Source: Collimonas sp. OK607 (GTDB lineage: Bacteria > Pseudomonadota > Gammaproteobacteria > Burkholderiales > Burkholderiaceae_D). From it: 64,000 nucleotides of DNA. The DNA is taken from contig NZ_FOKF01000026.1 of NCBI RefSeq assembly GCF_900111995.1, forward strand, positions 1 to 64,000, written 5' to 3'. Shown piece after piece: positions 55,540-63,124 of this stretch (its first letter is position 1; every line of letters begins with the position of its first letter). Below the pieces are notes generated by a model. That model worked only from the letters and a program-made list of their open reading frames with translations. It searched no databases and was not told where the DNA came from. Position numbers and translations under genes: made by a program.

Positions 55540-55559
55540 TGGCGGAAGCGGTGAGATTC
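55540..55559 (-). other. tRNA-Ser 3'-end fragment, probable island attachment site
   Basis: TGGCGGAAGCGGTGAGATTC (20 bases) is the reverse complement of a serine-tRNA 3' end, from the T loop to the CCA. Immediately after it the sequence departs from a tRNA (ccgctcac instead of gaactcac), and no D or anticodon arm follows. The tRNA's terminator is on its left side. This is the footprint left where an integrative element entered a tRNA gene; the element then lies to the right and the full tRNA should be at its far end, beyond the window. Confidence 0.65.
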
Positions 55560-55562
55560 CCG

Positions 55563-55997
55563 CTCACAAGGATAATTTCCCTTATCTTTCAATGACTTAA
55601 GATATCACGATGCGCCCAATTTGTCACACCAGCTTGCCCCACCTGACACGGCACTATGTGACCGTATCGCGCCCCAAAAAGAAGCCCTTCACAACGATAC
55701 CTATCCCTCACGTTTCTCGATAATTGACCGACATCTTGCACCATCAGAATGGGGCCGCGCGAGCCAGCTTAGAGTGGTTCGGACAAATCCAGAGTCGCCG
55801 CCAATCCATGCCCACTTCAGCGCCGAGTTTGTGCTGGCATGCAGTGCATTCAGCCACTACCTGCCCCACCTACATTGCCTTCGCGCAAGCTAGCCGCCGG
55901 TTCCTGGTTTGGTCCAACGCTCGTCGCGCAGATTGTCTCGCGGTCATCCGCGCTTAGTGCAGTTGCAGAGCTTTATTTCGTCATCGCCAGTTAAATC
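55563..55997. other. island edge, no gene recognised
   Basis: Between the att-like site and the XRE remnant there is no coding frame with a ribosome site or known motif on either strand. It probably consists of decayed island DNA; no integrase is visible. Confidence 0.4.
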
Positions 55998-56213
55998 GGA
56001 ATACCTCGCCCAAACGTCAGCAGTAGCCGCTACGAGACGAGCGTGCATGAGCCACCGTTTGAGACAGCGGCTATGATTGCGCACGTGCTGGATGTGCCAA
56101 CCACATATTTTTACTGCGAAAGCGCTGACCTAGCTAGGTGGGTACTAGCTTGGCACAAACTCCCCGCCAAAGACCGTGCGGGGCTAATGCCCCTCTTTGA
56201 GGACCCGCGTTAG
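55998..56213 (+). pseudogene. XRE-family HTH regulator, C-terminal remnant
   Basis: The frame reads RYETSVHEPPFETAAMIAHV, LDVPTTYFYCESADLARWVL, AWHKLPAKDRAGL, ending at TAG 56,211. The 'YE-G-HEP-F-T---IA--L-VPT-YFY' pattern is the end of the Cro/C1 helix-turn-helix and its short dimerisation tail. The first half is lost. It precedes the GTPase-caspase operon in the same direction and may have been its repressor; a 17-bp palindrome lies between them. Confidence 0.75.
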
Positions 56214-56470: not shown

Positions 56471-57760
56471 ATGCAAACAAATGTGCTGCAGGAATTCCTG
56501 AATCTGCGACTGTTGAACATCGGTGGAGAGGACTCCCGCCTCGAGAAATTGGGCGACGCCTGTCACGAGTTGGCTCAGCAATACGCGGCAGAGCCCAAAG
56601 TTGCCATGGCATCGCTGCTCGCGGCTTGGGACCCCGCCGCCGGCCAGCACCCGACGCTGGTCGCTATCGGCGAGCTACTGCAGAAACACTGGCCCACTTT
56701 CCGGGGTGCATTCCAAGACGAACCGCTCACATTGTACCGTGCCATTATTCTCGAAGCAGTCATGCGAGCCATGGAGCAGCAAGGCACCTTGGCCGTCGCC
56801 GTCAGCTTAGTTGGAGCAAACGTCTTGCCCCACCTCAATGTGGGCCAGGAAGAGCGTATTTTGTCGAAGATTTTGGAACGGGCGCAGAGCGTCACTTCTG
56901 AACGCATCACCCAGCTCTGGCCAACAAAATCCGAGCCAGCGCGTGTCGCAACTTTAAAATTGCCGACCCTTCCTACTCTGAAAAATACGGAACCGAACGC
57001 ATGGTTCGCACAAGTTGCTGCGGCGGCGGGACCGAGTACGAACAAGTCCGACGTATCCATTACCAATCCCAACCCGCACTGGACCAACCAACCGGCGTCG
57101 TGGTCGTATGAGTTCGCGGACCGAATGGCACCAATTCTGACGGATGTACATGACAAGGCAGCCAACGCTGCGTTAAAGGTAAGCACGCAAGCGCTGAAAA
57201 CACTGGGCGACTCTGTCGTAACGAAGCTGGATGACTTCCTCCGCGCTGAACAGACACGCAGCAATCACCTGAGCACATCGAACCGCCTGCTCTGGTGGCG
57301 GCAAGCTCTTTATTCGGAGACTGCTAATGCGCCTTACCGGACACTAGAGGCTCCGCTCCTGGCACTCCACATGGCATTCGACATGGCGGACCTGTTGCCA
57401 GAGGTCTACCCGCCGGCAGTAGAGTCGCTTCTGTTTGAGGCGGTTCGCGCCGCCGCTAATACGCGGTGCGAAGAGCATGTCGCGATGAAAGAGTTGCTGG
57501 ACACACAGAGGCAATCTACGCGCATTGCAGCCAGCAAGTGGCTACAGGAACAGCATATCCCGTCAGGGTGTCGCAGTCTATTCATTCAGGCACTGGCGAA
57601 CTCGTGTGCCGCCGGGAAAGCTGAACTCTCGCAGATTGGCTTCGACCCGGAGACGAAGATGACTCTCGGCGACTGGGCAATTTGGCTGTTGCGAGAGGTT
57701 AAGGCATTGGACGCGTTGTCCTCACCAGACGAGGTTACACCGCCTGAGGAGAAAGCGTGA
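56471..57760 (+). CDS. GASH-type all-helical GTPase-associated protein
   Basis: A 429-residue, mostly helical, Ala/Leu-rich protein with no membrane segment or signal. The N-terminal part (1-150; QEFLNLRLLNIGGEDSRLEK, LGDACHELAQQYAAEPKVAM) and the C-terminal part (260-400; STSNRLLWWRQALYSETANA, PYRTLEAPLLALHMAFDMAD) are separated by a Pro/Asn-rich linker. Gene order and layout match the GTPase-associated system helical (GASH) proteins described with double-GTPase conflict systems; I rely on remembered family traits. GGAG precedes the ATG and the stop overlaps the next start (GTGA). Likely a regulator or scaffold of the two GTPases. Confidence 0.7.
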   Translation: MQTNVLQEFLNLRLLNIGGEDSRLEKLGDACHELAQQYAAEPKVAMASLLAAWDPAAGQHPTLVAIGELLQKHWPTFRGAFQDEPLTLYRAIILEAVMRAMEQQGTLAVAVSLVGANVLPHLNVGQEERILSKILERAQSVTSERITQLWPTKSEPARVATLKLPTLPTLKNTEPNAWFAQVAAAAGPSTNKSDVSITNPNPHWTNQPASWSYEFADRMAPILTDVHDKAANAALKVSTQALKTLGDSVVTKLDDFLRAEQTRSNHLSTSNRLLWWRQALYSETANAPYRTLEAPLLALHMAFDMADLLPEVYPPAVESLLFEAVRAAANTRCEEHVAMKELLDTQRQSTRIAASKWLQEQHIPSGCRSLFIQALANSCAAGKAELSQIGFDPETKMTLGDWAIWLLREVKALDALSSPDEVTPPEEKA

Positions 57761-58725
57761 GCGGGCATTGCTCACAAGCTGCCTGCATCGCTCCTGACGA
57801 AGTTGGATGCCTTGTCGGCGAGGCCTCGCCTCACCTTTGCAAGCATTGGCAGAAAAAGGCTGAGGCCGAAACAACCGGCACAGTTGGGTTGGTGGAGGAA
57901 GGCGCACGGCTGCCTTGGACTGGCAATGCCCTGGGCTCCATGGACATCGGGTTCTTGGCAGGTAAGGCGCGAACGCGGCTCGTAGGCCTATTCGGCGCTG
58001 CTGAGAGCGGCAAGACTTCACTGCTAGGCGCATGGTACCTGCTCCTTGGGCGCGACATCTGCCCTGAGGGAATGTCATTCGCCGGCTCCCTGACACTGGA
58101 GGGCTGGGAGAATATCGCAGGTAGCCTGCGCTGGAACTCTATGCACGGCCCCACATTCCCGCCACATACCTCTAGCGGAACAGGCCGGCATCCGGGCTTG
58201 CTGCATCTGGACCTGAATGTGCACGAAGTCAGGCGCGACATCCTCTTCGCTGATGCGCCTGGCGAATGGTTCAGTCGCTGGGCAGTGCGTCGCGATGCCG
58301 AGGACGCATCTGGTGCTCTCTGGCTTTCAGATGCGTCTGACGTACTCGTTGTTGTGGCGGACTCAGATGCGCTTGCCGGCCCGCGTTTAGGCGTCGCCAG
58401 AACGAACCTTGTCTCACTGCTTCGACGTGTCGGTGCTGAGCGGCGCGACCGACCGGTTGCCCTCGTATGGACGAAGGGGGACGTGAAGGTCGATGACCAA
58501 ATGCGGCAGGCAGTAACTCAAGCCGCAGACCTAGCCCTTGGCAGCTATCGCACCTTCAGCGTGAGCATGCATTCCACTCCGGGTCAAGAGGCACACAACA
58601 GAGGTCAAGGCCTTATTGAGCTTTTCGAATGGGCTCTGACAGTTCCGGAGATGCCGTTTCACAGGCTGGCCGAGCTGCAGCATGAACGGGAACTGTTGCG
58701 TCAGGTCGGGGGCGTCTATGCCTGA
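57757..58725 (+). CDS. DO-GTPase2-type GTPase with N-terminal Cys cluster
   Basis: A 322-residue TRAFAC-like GTPase starting with GTG behind gaggag. G1 GAAESGKTS (80-88), G3 DAPGEW (166-171) and G4 TKGD (239-242) are all present, so nucleotide binding and switching should work. The N-terminus has Cys5, Cys10, Cys18 and Cys28 plus His30, a probable zinc site. DAPGE in place of DxxGQ lacks the usual catalytic Gln, so hydrolysis may depend on a partner. It overlaps its neighbours by 4 and 8 bases. It fits the second GTPase of the double-GTPase systems (inference from order and motifs). Confidence 0.8.
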   Translation: MSGHCSQAACIAPDEVGCLVGEASPHLCKHWQKKAEAETTGTVGLVEEGARLPWTGNALGSMDIGFLAGKARTRLVGLFGAAESGKTSLLGAWYLLLGRDICPEGMSFAGSLTLEGWENIAGSLRWNSMHGPTFPPHTSSGTGRHPGLLHLDLNVHEVRRDILFADAPGEWFSRWAVRRDAEDASGALWLSDASDVLVVVADSDALAGPRLGVARTNLVSLLRRVGAERRDRPVALVWTKGDVKVDDQMRQAVTQAADLALGSYRTFSVSMHSTPGQEAHNRGQGLIELFEWALTVPEMPFHRLAELQHERELLRQVGGVYA

Positions 58726-59560
58726 GGAAACTCTGAATATTGCCGTCTTCGGTGAATCCAACGTCGGCAAGAGCCACTACGGTGCGCAGCTCATAGCTCG
58801 GTTGAACGCCGAGACAGGTTCCATGCGCATGCGTGGCGCCGCCCCTGATTTGGCAGCTTTCGATGATGTGGTTCAGTCGCTCAACGGGGGAGTCCCTGGA
58901 GCGCATACGGCCGCTGGCACCTACACCGAGACCCTGTTACCGGTCCTAACCGAAGACAACCTGGCAATTGACTTGAATTGGCCAGACTATGCCGGCGAGC
59001 AGGTCAGCCAGCTCCTTGAGGAGCGACGTATCCCTGCGTCCTGGCAGCAGCGCGTCGAGACCGCAGACGGCTGGATTTTGATGGTTAGGCCCGAGCGCGC
59101 GCCCTTGGCAGAAGACATTTTTTCTAGGCCGCTTGGCGACTTAAAATCTTCTCGGCCTGATGGCGCTGTCATTGAGCGCTCGCCACAAGCACGGCTCGTG
59201 GAGTTGCTGCAGATGCTGCTGTACTCGACTCACGTACGCACAGGTAAGGCCAAACCGGCACTGGCGGTGGTTCTGTCGTGCTGGGACGAACTTCAAGTAC
59301 CAGAAGGTACGACTCCAGAGCAGGTGTTGGGCCAAAATCTACCGTTGTTGGCTGCCTTTGTGCGCAACAATTGGGACGAGCGCCGCACGCTTGTACTTGG
59401 TCTCTCCGCAACCGGAGTCGCGCTTTCCAAGGATTCTCCAAACAAGGACTTCATCTACAAGGGTGCAGAGCAGATGGGGTGGGTGGTCACGACAGACGGA
59501 ACACACACGCCAGACCTCACTGCTCCTATTTCGCAGCTTGCAAAGGCACTCCAGAACTAA
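58718..59560 (+). CDS. DO-GTPase1-type GTPase
   Basis: A 280-residue GTPase different from the one upstream. G1 GESNVGKSH (12-20), G3 DYAGEQ (90-95), G4-like SCWDEL and G5-like LSATG are visible. It has no membrane segment. It starts inside the previous gene (ATGCCTGA overlap) and its stop shares a base with the next start (TAATG), so production of the two GTPases and GAP1 is tightly coupled. A long insertion between G3 and G4 (RVETADGWILMVRPERAP) is like the Double-GTPase 1 family. Confidence 0.8.
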   Translation: MPEETLNIAVFGESNVGKSHYGAQLIARLNAETGSMRMRGAAPDLAAFDDVVQSLNGGVPGAHTAAGTYTETLLPVLTEDNLAIDLNWPDYAGEQVSQLLEERRIPASWQQRVETADGWILMVRPERAPLAEDIFSRPLGDLKSSRPDGAVIERSPQARLVELLQMLLYSTHVRTGKAKPALAVVLSCWDELQVPEGTTPEQVLGQNLPLLAAFVRNNWDERRTLVLGLSATGVALSKDSPNKDFIYKGAEQMGWVVTTDGTHTPDLTAPISQLAKALQN

Positions 59561-62031
59561 TGGGTATTCACAAAGCTTGGTATGGCCCTAAAGGAGGACA
59601 CGCCCTGTTGTCTTCAACGGAACCCGGCTCGCAGGCTGTCTTTCGCCAAGCGGCCTGGCTCACCGACCTTCCCGGGACTGTTCCGACCGGCCTGCAGTGG
59701 CAACCCTACTTCCGCACTGCCATCCATGACGGCTACTTCGTCCTTATCCACACACGGAGCAGCCGAGACACGACTCGCGCAGGTATGGTCGATTCAGTCG
59801 CCGCCTTCATCTCGCTAACTGAGCTGCCCCTTATCCCGGACCTTCGCGCGCTGGCCGACAATCTGCGCAAGTCGCACGATAACGACGACCGCACGCCCTT
59901 CGTGCCCATTGCCAACGCGACTACCGCGCTAGCTAACGCGCACCACCCGCTCCTGCTCGATATGGCCAACGCGCTCATCTCAGCGCAGCAACGACCCGTC
60001 ATACACATTGGGCAGACGGGGTTCGACGACATCATGCTCGACCTACTGCAGGTCGTCCCCAAGCAGATGCGCCGCGAAATCCTATTCAGCTTGAGCTTTT
60101 CGCCGGAAGACACTGGAGCCTATGTTGCAGTTGCAGCTCCCAAAGAGCTGGCATCGCGGTACCCGCAAGGGCAAGTGCTTTCAGCATCGAGCGAGCCGCC
60201 CAGCACTGGTGTAGCAGCCCTTCTGAACATGCCAGAAGGCCGGCCGTTGCTGGACTTCGGCGAAGCCGCTGCGTTCGACTTGCAGTCGGCGAACTCCTTC
60301 ATCCTGTTGGAGCAAGCCTTTCTTCTGTGGGAAAGCCCTACCGGAGTCGGCGACGCAATCAGGCTTGTGAGGCTGCTGGCGGCCAAGTCAGGGGATTCGC
60401 AGCGAGCAAGCGATGTCCGCAAGGTCGCGTTAGACAAGCTCACCTCCACTTCTGGGCAGTGGACACCGGCCGACGTGCTCTCGATGCGCAACCTGCAGCT
60501 GGAGCGTTTCGACACTAGCACATTGACTGCGGCTGTAAGGGCTTGGGTTCGCAATCGCGCTACCCAAGCAGCAAAGACCGAGGACGATTGCCATCTTTTT
60601 GACCAGGCCGCCCGCAGCGCGGCGCAACAGAAATGGTGGAACACCGACGTTCATGCTGGGTATGCGTCCGCAATCAACGCCCAGAGCGCCGGCATCGGCA
60701 CTCTAGCTTGGGAGACTATCGCGAAGGTACCGGAAGGCCTTGAGCCAGTTCTGGCGCTTTTCGGTGCGGAAGGCCAGCTTCAAGTATTGGCGAGCACTGT
60801 TCCCGCCGTACTGCCCTCGGCCCTCGCTGACAGTGTCGCTCAAGAAAGCGCAAATCGCGGAGCATGGCAACTATGTGGCGTTGCTCTGGCCGCAGCGCAT
60901 ACCCCACCTAAAGCCCTATCTGAAGTTTTGAAGCATGTCCCTCCCAACGGCTTTCGACGTGTGGCCATCAAGTCTGCGCTCTCGAAGGCTTCGCCAGACG
61001 ATATCATCGGAATTGCGGTACGCGAGGGCATTGAGGAAGTCACCGCTCTAGCGGCGGATGTCATCACTGGCGACCCGAATCTTGTGCACAAATTCGATTG
61101 GACTTCGCCAGTGTGGTTCGACATCCTGGACCAAGCAATTGCCAGGAACCGGAACAAAGCCACCGAGGTACCAGATAGGTTGCAAGGGCTGCAGGCGCTC
61201 ATTCAGCGCGGTGAACGGTCGGACCGAATCTGGGGACCACTCGTCAGAGCAGGACTTGCGGACCTCTCGCATGTGCCGAACAGGGCCGATGCTTGGAAAC
61301 TCATACCTGAGGCGCTGGCTTCGGATGTCGTTGGTCTCACCGCAAAGGGGTGGCTAGCCGCCGTGCTGGACGGCACTGCCAGTATTGGAGCCATCGAAGA
61401 GCCTCTGCGCAGCGAAGTGAGGTCCACACTCAAAGGCAACACGTTGATGGCCTCTTTGGCGCAGAAATCCCACGCGGTGTTCATCAACATCATCAATACG
61501 CTTTACCCTCAGAGCGACTATGAATGCGTGACTCTTCTCGATTCATTGGCGCGCACTCCTGGTTGCCGACTCGCGTCGGCGCCCGCGATGGCCCTGGGCA
61601 AATTGATTCGAACACACCTCTGGAGTTCCGCCGCTGCGGAGGCAGCTAGCCACGGCCGCTCGCGTGACGACTTCTTTCCGCTCTGCAGGGAGTGTCTGAG
61701 CGTCATGAATTGGTGGGATAGCTTTCCCCTGAGTTTTCGCATGGGCAAGCCAGTTCAGATTCCCGCCGACGATGCGTGGCAGATGTTTGAGGAAACGCTG
61801 GCAGAGCTTTACCCACAAGGGCCAACGCACCAAGAGTTTTGGAGCCGTACCGGCGGCAAGGACAATCAGCTGAGCTCTGAGGGCAATGGCGTAGCCCAAT
61901 GGCATCGCTGCCTCAAACATGTACGTGCGGGCCAAGGGCCAGCCGCATCGAATCTCCTGCGCACCTCCCTGCGGGACTTCAGCGGAAATCCAGTTCTACA
62001 GGTGCTGCGTGATAGCCGCATGCTAGAATGA
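59560..62031 (+). CDS. GAP1-like large protein with C-terminal EAD1-type adaptor
   Basis: An 823-residue cytoplasmic protein starting MGIHKAWYGPKGGHALLSST; an in-frame longer version from 59,278 lies antisense to sense inside the GTPase gene and is rejected. The N-terminal region (1-230) looks like the GAP1 N-terminal module (YGPKGGHALLS, then HDGYFVLIHTRSSRD). The middle is helical and repetitive. The last 90 residues (about 735-823) form a small domain, LYPQGPTHQEFWSRTGGKDN and VAQWHRCLKHVRAGQGPAAS, which recurs in the caspase protein next door and matches effector-associated domain 1. I infer it couples the GTPases to the protease. Confidence 0.8.
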   Translation: MGIHKAWYGPKGGHALLSSTEPGSQAVFRQAAWLTDLPGTVPTGLQWQPYFRTAIHDGYFVLIHTRSSRDTTRAGMVDSVAAFISLTELPLIPDLRALADNLRKSHDNDDRTPFVPIANATTALANAHHPLLLDMANALISAQQRPVIHIGQTGFDDIMLDLLQVVPKQMRREILFSLSFSPEDTGAYVAVAAPKELASRYPQGQVLSASSEPPSTGVAALLNMPEGRPLLDFGEAAAFDLQSANSFILLEQAFLLWESPTGVGDAIRLVRLLAAKSGDSQRASDVRKVALDKLTSTSGQWTPADVLSMRNLQLERFDTSTLTAAVRAWVRNRATQAAKTEDDCHLFDQAARSAAQQKWWNTDVHAGYASAINAQSAGIGTLAWETIAKVPEGLEPVLALFGAEGQLQVLASTVPAVLPSALADSVAQESANRGAWQLCGVALAAAHTPPKALSEVLKHVPPNGFRRVAIKSALSKASPDDIIGIAVREGIEEVTALAADVITGDPNLVHKFDWTSPVWFDILDQAIARNRNKATEVPDRLQGLQALIQRGERSDRIWGPLVRAGLADLSHVPNRADAWKLIPEALASDVVGLTAKGWLAAVLDGTASIGAIEEPLRSEVRSTLKGNTLMASLAQKSHAVFINIINTLYPQSDYECVTLLDSLARTPGCRLASAPAMALGKLIRTHLWSSAAAEAASHGRSRDDFFPLCRECLSVMNWWDSFPLSFRMGKPVQIPADDAWQMFEETLAELYPQGPTHQEFWSRTGGKDNQLSSEGNGVAQWHRCLKHVRAGQGPAASNLLRTSLRDFSGNPVLQVLRDSRMLE

Positions 62032-62035
62032 GCCG

Positions 62036-63124
62036 ATGAGCAAAACCTTCCAATCTGGCCGAGCACTCGTCATCGGCGTCGGTGAATACGAATCGCTTTC
62101 CCCTCTCGGCTCGGCGCCGGTCTATGACGCTGAAGATATCGCCAACTTTCTGGCCAGCGCCAAGCACTGCGGTTATCTCGCTGAGAACGTGCACATCCTG
62201 CGCAACGCCGACGCTTCTCGGACCGCCATCGTGAACGGGCTCAAAAAGCTGGCGGCCGACGCCGGGGCTGGCGACACAGTCGTCGTCTACTTCTCCGGTC
62301 ATGGCGCGCAGCAGCTGTCAGGACCAAACGGTGGCACATATCTATGTCCTTCTGAGTTCGACATTTATCGACCTCGCGAGACCGGTATAGAGGCCGAAGA
62401 GCTTTCCGAACTACTAAATCAGATTCCCGCAGAACGCCTCTTAGTTCTCGTAGACGCCTGCCATTCAGGTGCTGTAGCACGCATCAAAGGGGCCGCCGAA
62501 GACGTCACTAAGTGGGCTTTCGGTGGGCCAAGGCTTGACGCACTAGCGCAAGGGAAAGGGCGCGTCATCATTTCAGCAAGTGCATCTGACGAAAGCTCTG
62601 TCATCCTTAGTCTTCATCGCAACAGCCTCTTTACGCATTTCCTCCTCAAAGGGCTGCAAGGCGATGTGGACGACCGCTCTGATGGCCTCATACGAGTCTT
62701 AGACCTTTTCCACTATCTTGCAGAGCTTGTCCCGGCTACTCACAGCTCTCAGAACCCCGTACTGACTACACGCACGCAAGATAACTTTCCTGTTGCACTG
62801 CGCAAGGGAGGACAACTCAAGTCTGCAGAGGAACCCATTGTAATTCCTTCTACTGCGAGCTCCGCAAGTCCCCGCGAGCTCGAAGACCTACTGGTTACGC
62901 TGTATCCGCAGGGGCCACTGGACCAGGAAATCTGGTCTCGCGCAGGCGGTGACGTTGCTAGCTTGCGTATAAGTAGCACCGGGCGGGCAGCTTGGCACGC
63001 GGCTCTACGCCTGCTGGCCCAAGGTGGTGGTGGCGCTAGCATGAGTATGCACAGCTTGCTCACGGAAGCGTCAAGTGAGTTTGGGGCCAACCCCGACCTC
63101 AAGCGTCTCCTCGGCAACGCCTGA
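62036..63124 (+). CDS. caspase-fold (peptidase C14) protease with EAD1-type adaptor
   Basis: A 362-residue protein with an N-terminal caspase/metacaspase domain (about 5-255): RALVIGVGEYESLSPLGSAP, catalytic His89 (YFSGHGAQ) and Cys142 (LVDACHSGA), ISASASDESSV after it. The linker is Ser-rich. Residues 279-360 (LEDLLVTLYPQGPLDQEIWS, then AAWHAALRLLAQGG) form the same adaptor as the end of the GAP1-like protein. Both catalytic residues are intact. It lies 4 bp after GAP1 and is the presumed toxic effector: it should stay off until GTPase/GAP1 signalling clusters it through the adaptor. Confidence 0.9.
   Translation: MSKTFQSGRALVIGVGEYESLSPLGSAPVYDAEDIANFLASAKHCGYLAENVHILRNADASRTAIVNGLKKLAADAGAGDTVVVYFSGHGAQQLSGPNGGTYLCPSEFDIYRPRETGIEAEELSELLNQIPAERLLVLVDACHSGAVARIKGAAEDVTKWAFGGPRLDALAQGKGRVIISASASDESSVILSLHRNSLFTHFLLKGLQGDVDDRSDGLIRVLDLFHYLAELVPATHSSQNPVLTTRTQDNFPVALRKGGQLKSAEEPIVIPSTASSASPRELEDLLVTLYPQGPLDQEIWSRAGGDVASLRISSTGRAAWHAALRLLAQGGGGASMSMHSLLTEASSEFGANPDLKRLLGNA

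Follow-up and report, generated by a model that had tools for sequence, protein, structure and literature searches.

Whether the GTP state of a switch protein can control a caspase in bacteria is the question raised by five genes at 56471-63124 of the window, which is the whole stretch of 64,000 nucleotides analyzed here (Collimonas sp. OK607, contig NZ_FOKF01000026.1, positions 1 to 64,000 of the forward strand). An earlier description made from the letters alone (the sequence-only reading) had recognized an all-helical protein, two unlike P-loop GTPases, a scaffold-like protein and a caspase-fold protease encoded on one strand, and had proposed that the infected or stressed cell is killed by a caspase that the GTPases gate. 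We confirmed the five-gene cluster and found that its products belong to five families with intact motifs, that the gene order is conserved among relatives, and that both the scaffold-like protein, GAP1, and the caspase carry an EAD1 adaptor domain. It is probable, in our estimation, that a scaffold switched by GTP recruits, via EAD1, a caspase specific for basic residues and activates it, which would result in abortive protection.

Operon layout, known kind and conserved order

The five genes were all intact open frames on the same strand, tightly packed in an operon of ~6.7 kilobases (Table 1), and their packing was as described earlier: gene 2 overlaps gene 1 by 4 bases, gene 3 overlaps gene 2 by 8 bases, gene 4 overlaps gene 3 by 1 base, and a 4-base gap separates genes 4 and 5. 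The 8-base overlap and the length of the gene 3 product are counted from the ATG at 58718, the longest frame of the gene beginning at 58682. The Pfam matches for all five proteins exceeded the curated cut-offs and included two distinct GTPase families, DO-GTPase2 (the zinc-ribbon form) being encoded first and DO-GTPase1 second. Among the Pfam domains proposed in the sequence-only reading, GASH, DO-GTPase1, DO-GTPase2, GAP1-N1, EAD1 and Peptidase_C14 were found, whereas GAP1-M and GAP1-C had no match in the window GAP1 at E up to 1, nor at 0.1 in the four relatives scanned. The caspase was also matched in the NCBIfam scan, below the cut-off. A scan for promoters gave hits at the chance level and a scan for terminators gave hits below it.

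An operon of this kind has been predicted before. In the parts of Kaur et al. (2020; PMC7159879) on which we draw here and below, GAP1-N1 GTPase-centric systems were predicted by comparative genomics as conflict or immunity systems that consist of GASH, two DO-GTPases (one with a zinc ribbon), GAP1 and variable effectors, including caspases. Some of the GAP1 proteins carry a C-terminal EAD1, in which case the effectors carry EAD1 too, and the coupling of GAP1 and effector was read as activation, by analogy with Death-domain systems (PMC7159879). By its predicted domains, the operon fits the GAP1-N1 type of GTPase-centric conflict system, here with a caspase as the effector, as it shares GASH, the two DO-GTPases with the ribbon on one of them, GAP1-N1, and EAD1 on both GAP1 and a separate effector of a listed type. 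No difference in layout was found from what those parts of the source describe, with GAP1-M and GAP1-C being unmatched by Pfam in the window. The comparative-genomics work to which the earlier reading had alluded does exist and describes this layout. The remark of that reading that no experimental work was known to it also agrees with our searches of the open-licence PubMed Central literature, a body outside which subscription papers and most preprints lie and in which no experimental study of a GAP1-N1 system was found. To the 2020 prediction, the present analysis adds the departure of DO-GTPase1 at G4, the invariant Arg73 of GAP1, the solenoid model, the division of effector types by clade, and the defence neighbours.

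We compared 24 relatives: the genome collection supplied 4, plasmids 8 (of 17 hits), phage records 1 (the single hit) and further GASH-matching genomes 11 (of 13). Those left out were nine plasmid hits, G091, whose 3,654-base contig ends at the hit, and G092, which was taken as the same as L003 because the two contigs are equal in length. The order GASH, DO-GTPase2, DO-GTPase1, GAP1, with GASH as the first core gene, was observed in 24/24 relatives, a count that indicates conserved neighbours and not prevalence because the relatives had been retrieved through matches to DO-GTPase1 or GASH. A chance arrangement is therefore excluded. The sequence-only reading had staked its grouping on profile matches and on a recurring order, and both were obtained, the former for 5/5 genes.

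Table 1. Features of the operon and of its upstream flank, in window positions
Feature	Position	Strand	Details
Gene 1, GASH protein	56471..57760	+	429 aa; Pfam GASH 1.9e-90
Gene 2, DO-GTPase2	57757..58725	+	322 aa, GTG start; Pfam DO-GTPase2 3e-60
DO-GTPase2 motifs			P-loop, DAPGE, TKGD; N-terminal four-Cys zinc-ribbon-like segment (Cys5, 10, 18, 28)
Gene 3, DO-GTPase1	58718..59560	+	280 aa; Pfam DO-GTPase1 1.8e-73
DO-GTPase1 motifs			P-loop GESNVGKS, DYAGE, SCWD where N/TKxD is expected
DO-GTPase1 G4 place	59276-59287		residues 187-190, SCWD
Gene 4, GAP1	59560..62031	+	823 aa; Pfam GAP1-N1 and EAD1; AF2 model
GAP1-N1 domain	59566..59862	+	Pfam 3.6e-24
GAP1 Arg73 codon	59776..59778	+	candidate arginine finger; invariant in 18/18 aligned GAP1 proteins
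Predicted alpha-solenoid of GAP1	60337..61749	+	about residues 260-730, AF2 model
EAD1 at GAP1 C-terminus	61768..62010	+	Pfam 4.7e-6
Gene 5, caspase-family protease with C-terminal EAD1	62036..63124	+	362 aa; Pfam Peptidase_C14 8.1e-19
Catalytic His89 codon	62300..62302	+	invariant 12/12
Catalytic Cys142 codon	62459..62461	+	invariant 12/12
EAD1 at caspase C-terminus	62870..63112	+	Pfam 1.6e-9
tRNA-Ser(UGA) 3'-end 20-base copy, attachment-site-like remnant	55540..55559		exact match to intact tRNA-Ser, contig C54

Conserved residues and shared adaptor domain

The caspase has the dyad of family C14, with His89 in an SGHG motif and Cys142 in a DAC motif, so that the intact His and Cys of the earlier description were verified, and Asp31 and Asp140 were likewise invariant in 12/12 sequences. 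The best sequence relatives of this protein in PDB were mostly metacaspases, and Asp31 and Asp140 aligned with conserved Asp positions of metacaspases in the alignments shown. Asp residues of metacaspases line the pocket for Arg or Lys (S1). This positional match, taken with the knowledge of metacaspases, suggests that the caspase cleaves after Arg or Lys, not Asp, that is, with a basic P1 preference.

EAD1 is the feature that would connect this protease to the scaffold. A genome-wide search at E up to 0.1 gave only two EAD1 matches, those in GAP1 and the caspase, and the two domains were 41 percent identical. Among 15 systems, the EAD1 identity was 35.2 percent within systems versus 32.7 percent between systems, with a permutation value of 0.005 that ignores the relatedness and shared ancestry of the systems. 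This within-system similarity lends weak support to a pairing of the two domains. As a proof of their co-evolution, it was rejected, the effect being small and the statistic being uncorrected for relatedness.

The two GTPases were compared in 16 aligned sequences each. In DO-GTPase2, G80, G85 and K86 of the P-loop were each present in 16/16, the G3 motif had Asp in 15/16 and Glu170 in 16/16, and the TKxD-type motif had Lys240 in 15/16 and Asp242 in 16/16. Its N-terminal Cys5, Cys10, Cys18 and Cys28 were Cys in 13, 13, 12 and 15 of the 16 sequences, respectively, two of which start at a late annotated start; no zinc-ribbon profile matched this N-terminus, which is ribbon-like by its Cys pattern. 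In DO-GTPase1, Lys18 of the P-loop was present in 15/16, the exception being the short copy of L032, and Glu94 in 16/16. Glu170 and Glu94 thereby supply, in the respective GTPase, the conserved Glu that characterizes the Walker B (G3) motif of DO-GTPases in GAP1-N1 systems. The lysine of G4 was, by contrast with the TKxD-type motif of DO-GTPase2, missing in 16/16, its place being taken by Cys (13) or Ala (3), and the other columns of this motif held Ser or Thr in 16/16, Trp in 15/16 and Asp in 16/16. The GTPase pair is thus unlike in the base-recognition motif, and the departure in DO-GTPase1 may represent altered nucleotide use. In L032, an Enterobacter kobei plasmid, DO-GTPase1 is short and GAP1 lies in two frames, with the caspase still open.

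As for the remaining two proteins, the GASH protein was modelled by AlphaFold2 (AF2) as almost entirely helical, in line with the earlier all-helical description, with a pLDDT of 52. In GAP1, Arg73 is a candidate arginine finger, and the region in which GAP1-M or GAP1-C was not matched was modelled as an alpha-solenoid.

Proposed control of the caspase and named systems

In the mechanism that we propose, GASH, perhaps together with the GAP1 solenoid, would sense an intruder or the damage caused by it, and the two unlike DO-GTPases would form an asymmetric pair, of which the nucleotide state would set a threshold. The N1 domain of GAP1 would read this nucleotide state, with the result that the C-terminal EAD1 of GAP1 would be exposed or clustered, and EAD1-EAD1 contact would then gather caspase molecules, leading to their activation by proximity. 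The active caspase would cut proteins after basic residues, by which the cell would be stopped or killed before the phage or plasmid spreads. We infer the sensing, switching, recruitment, cleavage and protection in this scheme. The earlier proposal, in which infected cells are killed by a GTPase-gated caspase, is consistent with the predicted anatomy and with the defence neighbours of some relatives.

It is also conceivable, although we think it unlikely, that GAP1 is a true GTPase-activating scaffold, in which the finger Arg73 would act on one DO-GTPase, with DO-GTPase1 being a specialized partner with altered nucleotide use, and that release of EAD1 by the solenoid, to cluster the basic-specific metacaspase, would depend on hydrolysis or on its being blocked. 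Known caspase-linked immunity follows an ATP-driven STAND logic, with which a Rag- or Ran-like GTPase logic contrasts. If Arg73 did act in this manner, Rag- or Ran-like logic would be found to drive a bacterial caspase.

The anatomy would also suit a brake, whereby the core of GTPases, GAP1 and GASH would hold the caspase inactive until the core itself is lost or inhibited, for example when a phage depletes GTP or stops synthesis, and the caspase would then be freed in a guard or addiction style. Plasmid-borne operons would suit addiction, and the loss of the G4 lysine from DO-GTPase1 is what one might expect if this GTPase regulates and does not turn over. However, an adaptor domain common to GAP1 and the caspase is usually a recruitment arrangement, and the published reading, which draws on the Death-domain analogy, is activation (PMC7159879), so that a brake appears improbable to us.

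Activation through EAD1, which we prefer, can be set beside named systems. In the parts of PMC12799240 on which we draw, Canu is likewise a multi-gene bacterial system in which a caspase-family protease is active; its caspase carries an Ig-like fold and activates a gated partner nuclease, and its role in defence was shown experimentally. The Collimonas operon has GTPases, GAP1 and EAD1 instead, with no nuclease domain found by Pfam in its five proteins. A similar relay is imaginable here, in which the activated caspase, as an initiator, would signal onward by cleaving a single specific partner or a small set of them (GASH, GAP1, or a protein of the host or of a phage). The activation of a nuclease by the Canu caspase would argue for such a relay, as would a NERD-domain protein whose gene lies 1.4 kb beyond that of the caspase, in the same orientation, but a nuclease directly downstream was annotated in 0/4 annotated caspase-type plasmid relatives (L028, L030, L031 and L032; the PLSDB tables are incomplete), and we hold the initiator role to be doubtful.

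Caspase-bearing Thoeris is Type IV Thoeris. In Thoeris with a caspase (Rousset et al, 2025, as cited in PMC12799240), a TIR signal activates the protease. The operon has in common with it a caspase-like protease as a predicted immunity effector; TIR, a feature of Thoeris, had no Pfam match at E up to 1 in any of the five proteins. In the apoptosome and inflammasome of animals, a nucleotide switch, a helical scaffold, a homotypic adaptor and a caspase are combined, the switches being STAND ATPases. The same four elements are recognizable in the operon, with GTPases in place of STAND ATPases and, as the adaptor, EAD1, which is at most a putative Death-fold domain. The parallel to animal adaptors and caspases was drawn by Kaur et al (PMC7159879).

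Effector types, genomic surroundings and significance

The system is rare and patchy in distribution. GASH matches were found in 8/294 genomes of the family, 5/399 of the order and 4/398 of the phylum, with the own genome counted each time, and in 2/15 genomes within the genus. Three scans of viral contigs gave no relative, the two GTPase genes had no DNA match in Escherichia coli genomes, and phage records gave one match, a Leptospira phage record.

Although the core was constant, the effectors were of several types. A caspase with EAD1 lay directly downstream of the core in 11/24 relatives, and a phosphorylase (PNP_UDP_1) was the effector in 3/24, its EAD1 being found by Pfam in L033 and L046 and by an iterated profile in L036. 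An upstream EAD1 protein just below the Pfam cut-off, with no matched enzyme domain, was found in 1/24 (L034). In 9/24, a calcineurin-type phosphoesterase was encoded upstream; two of these, in L038 and L041, were Pfam-scanned and carried GAAD, and the seven others were assigned by eye from the N-terminal motif. Thus, in the EAD1 lineage, a phosphorylase with EAD1 can replace the caspase, and the other lineage has a phosphoesterase, with GAAD in the two scanned. In a phylogeny built from the concatenated core proteins of 24 systems, which included the window and from which L032 was dropped because of its broken genes, the caspase systems formed one clade (support 0.959), as did the phosphoesterase systems (1.000). 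The three phosphorylase systems did not, two of them pairing (1.000) and L033 standing apart. Free variation of effectors was considered and was not seen for the caspase and phosphoesterase types, each being one clade.

The relatives include operons on plasmids of seven genera, and the contig of L004 also encodes a conjugation coupling protein and a relaxase. In L046, a Mu-type transposase, TniB and TniQ (L046:3641-7413) lie directly upstream of the phosphorylase-type GAP1 operon, which suggests that this operon is Tn7-like cargo. In the Leptospira phage record (L036; KF114878), GASH, two DO-GTPases, GAP1-EAD1 and the phosphorylase-type effector adjoin an integrase gene. The window operon itself has the 20-base copy of a tRNA-Ser 3'-end 0.9 kb upstream, the ~100-base flank of which matched at 88-92 percent beside tRNA-Ser genes in 3/15 same-genus genomes and differs from the flank of the intact tRNA-Ser gene on another contig of the own genome. 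Phage-integrase domains are encoded by two genes further along this contig, 5.5 to 9 kb downstream of the operon. From the tRNA-Ser copy, its shared flank and these integrase genes, we read the surroundings as a mobile island. Just upstream of the operon, at 55995-56213, a 72-codon stretch looks in translation, by eye, like the C-terminus of an XRE-type phage repressor. The NERD-domain (nuclease-related) protein downstream of the caspase gene is at L048:4485-5609 (contig 64484-65608), and a DUF6932 protein ~10 kb downstream (L048:13191-13751; contig 73190-73750) weakly matched the candidate PDC-M63A (6.9e-11).

Neighbouring genes were scanned by PADLOC for 19 proteins picked by eye, of which seven relatives contributed 14 and the own contig 5. 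Six hits were strong, namely, PsyrT and PsyrA (L003), JetC and JetD of Wadjet (L005), PDC-S06 (L040) and PifA (L042). Weak hits were obtained for a SIR2-STAND protein in L002 (ThsA, 6.2e-5; Pfam SIR2_2), for a single protein in L040 and another in L046, and for the DUF6932 protein of the own contig; the remaining neighbours scanned had no hit. The control of long hand-picked proteins from elsewhere in the window gave 0/10. A role outside defence, as a responder to stress or envelope damage that leads to regulated lysis or growth arrest, may be considered from the occurrence of a DO-GTPase-family protein in PSP membrane-stress operons, as noted in the part of PMC11237479 seen, and from the membrane linkage of GAP1-N2 relatives (PMC7159879). 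Nevertheless, no membrane-linked domain was found among the five proteins by Pfam, the only tool applied to this point, several relatives adjoin defence genes, and relatives are on mobile elements, which makes such a role very unlikely in our judgement.

Several points weigh against the proposed switch and its protective role. The GASH model is poor, as is the AF2 model of GAP1 residues 1-250, and the within-system excess of EAD1 identity is only slight. Since the caspase and phosphoesterase types are clade-bound, an arms race is less supported than it would be under free swapping of effectors. PADLOC profiles matched the caspase alone and not genes 1-4. The defence neighbours do not amount to a survey because they were picked by eye in 7/24 relatives and the control came from the window rather than from the relatives' genomes; L002 and L046 gave weak hits only, and the single L004 protein scanned gave none. 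Furthermore, in the parts of the source consulted, GAP1-N1 systems show no special association with a multicellular habit (PMC7159879).

Bacterial caspase-based immunity is an active field, and GTPases go unmentioned in the consulted parts of a recent experimental paper (PMC12799240). With its intact motifs, its plasmid relatives and the predictions at single residues, the operon would make the prediction of 2020 directly testable. It addresses whether GTP state may control a bacterial caspase and whether EAD1 may do in bacteria what recruitment domains do in animal cell death.

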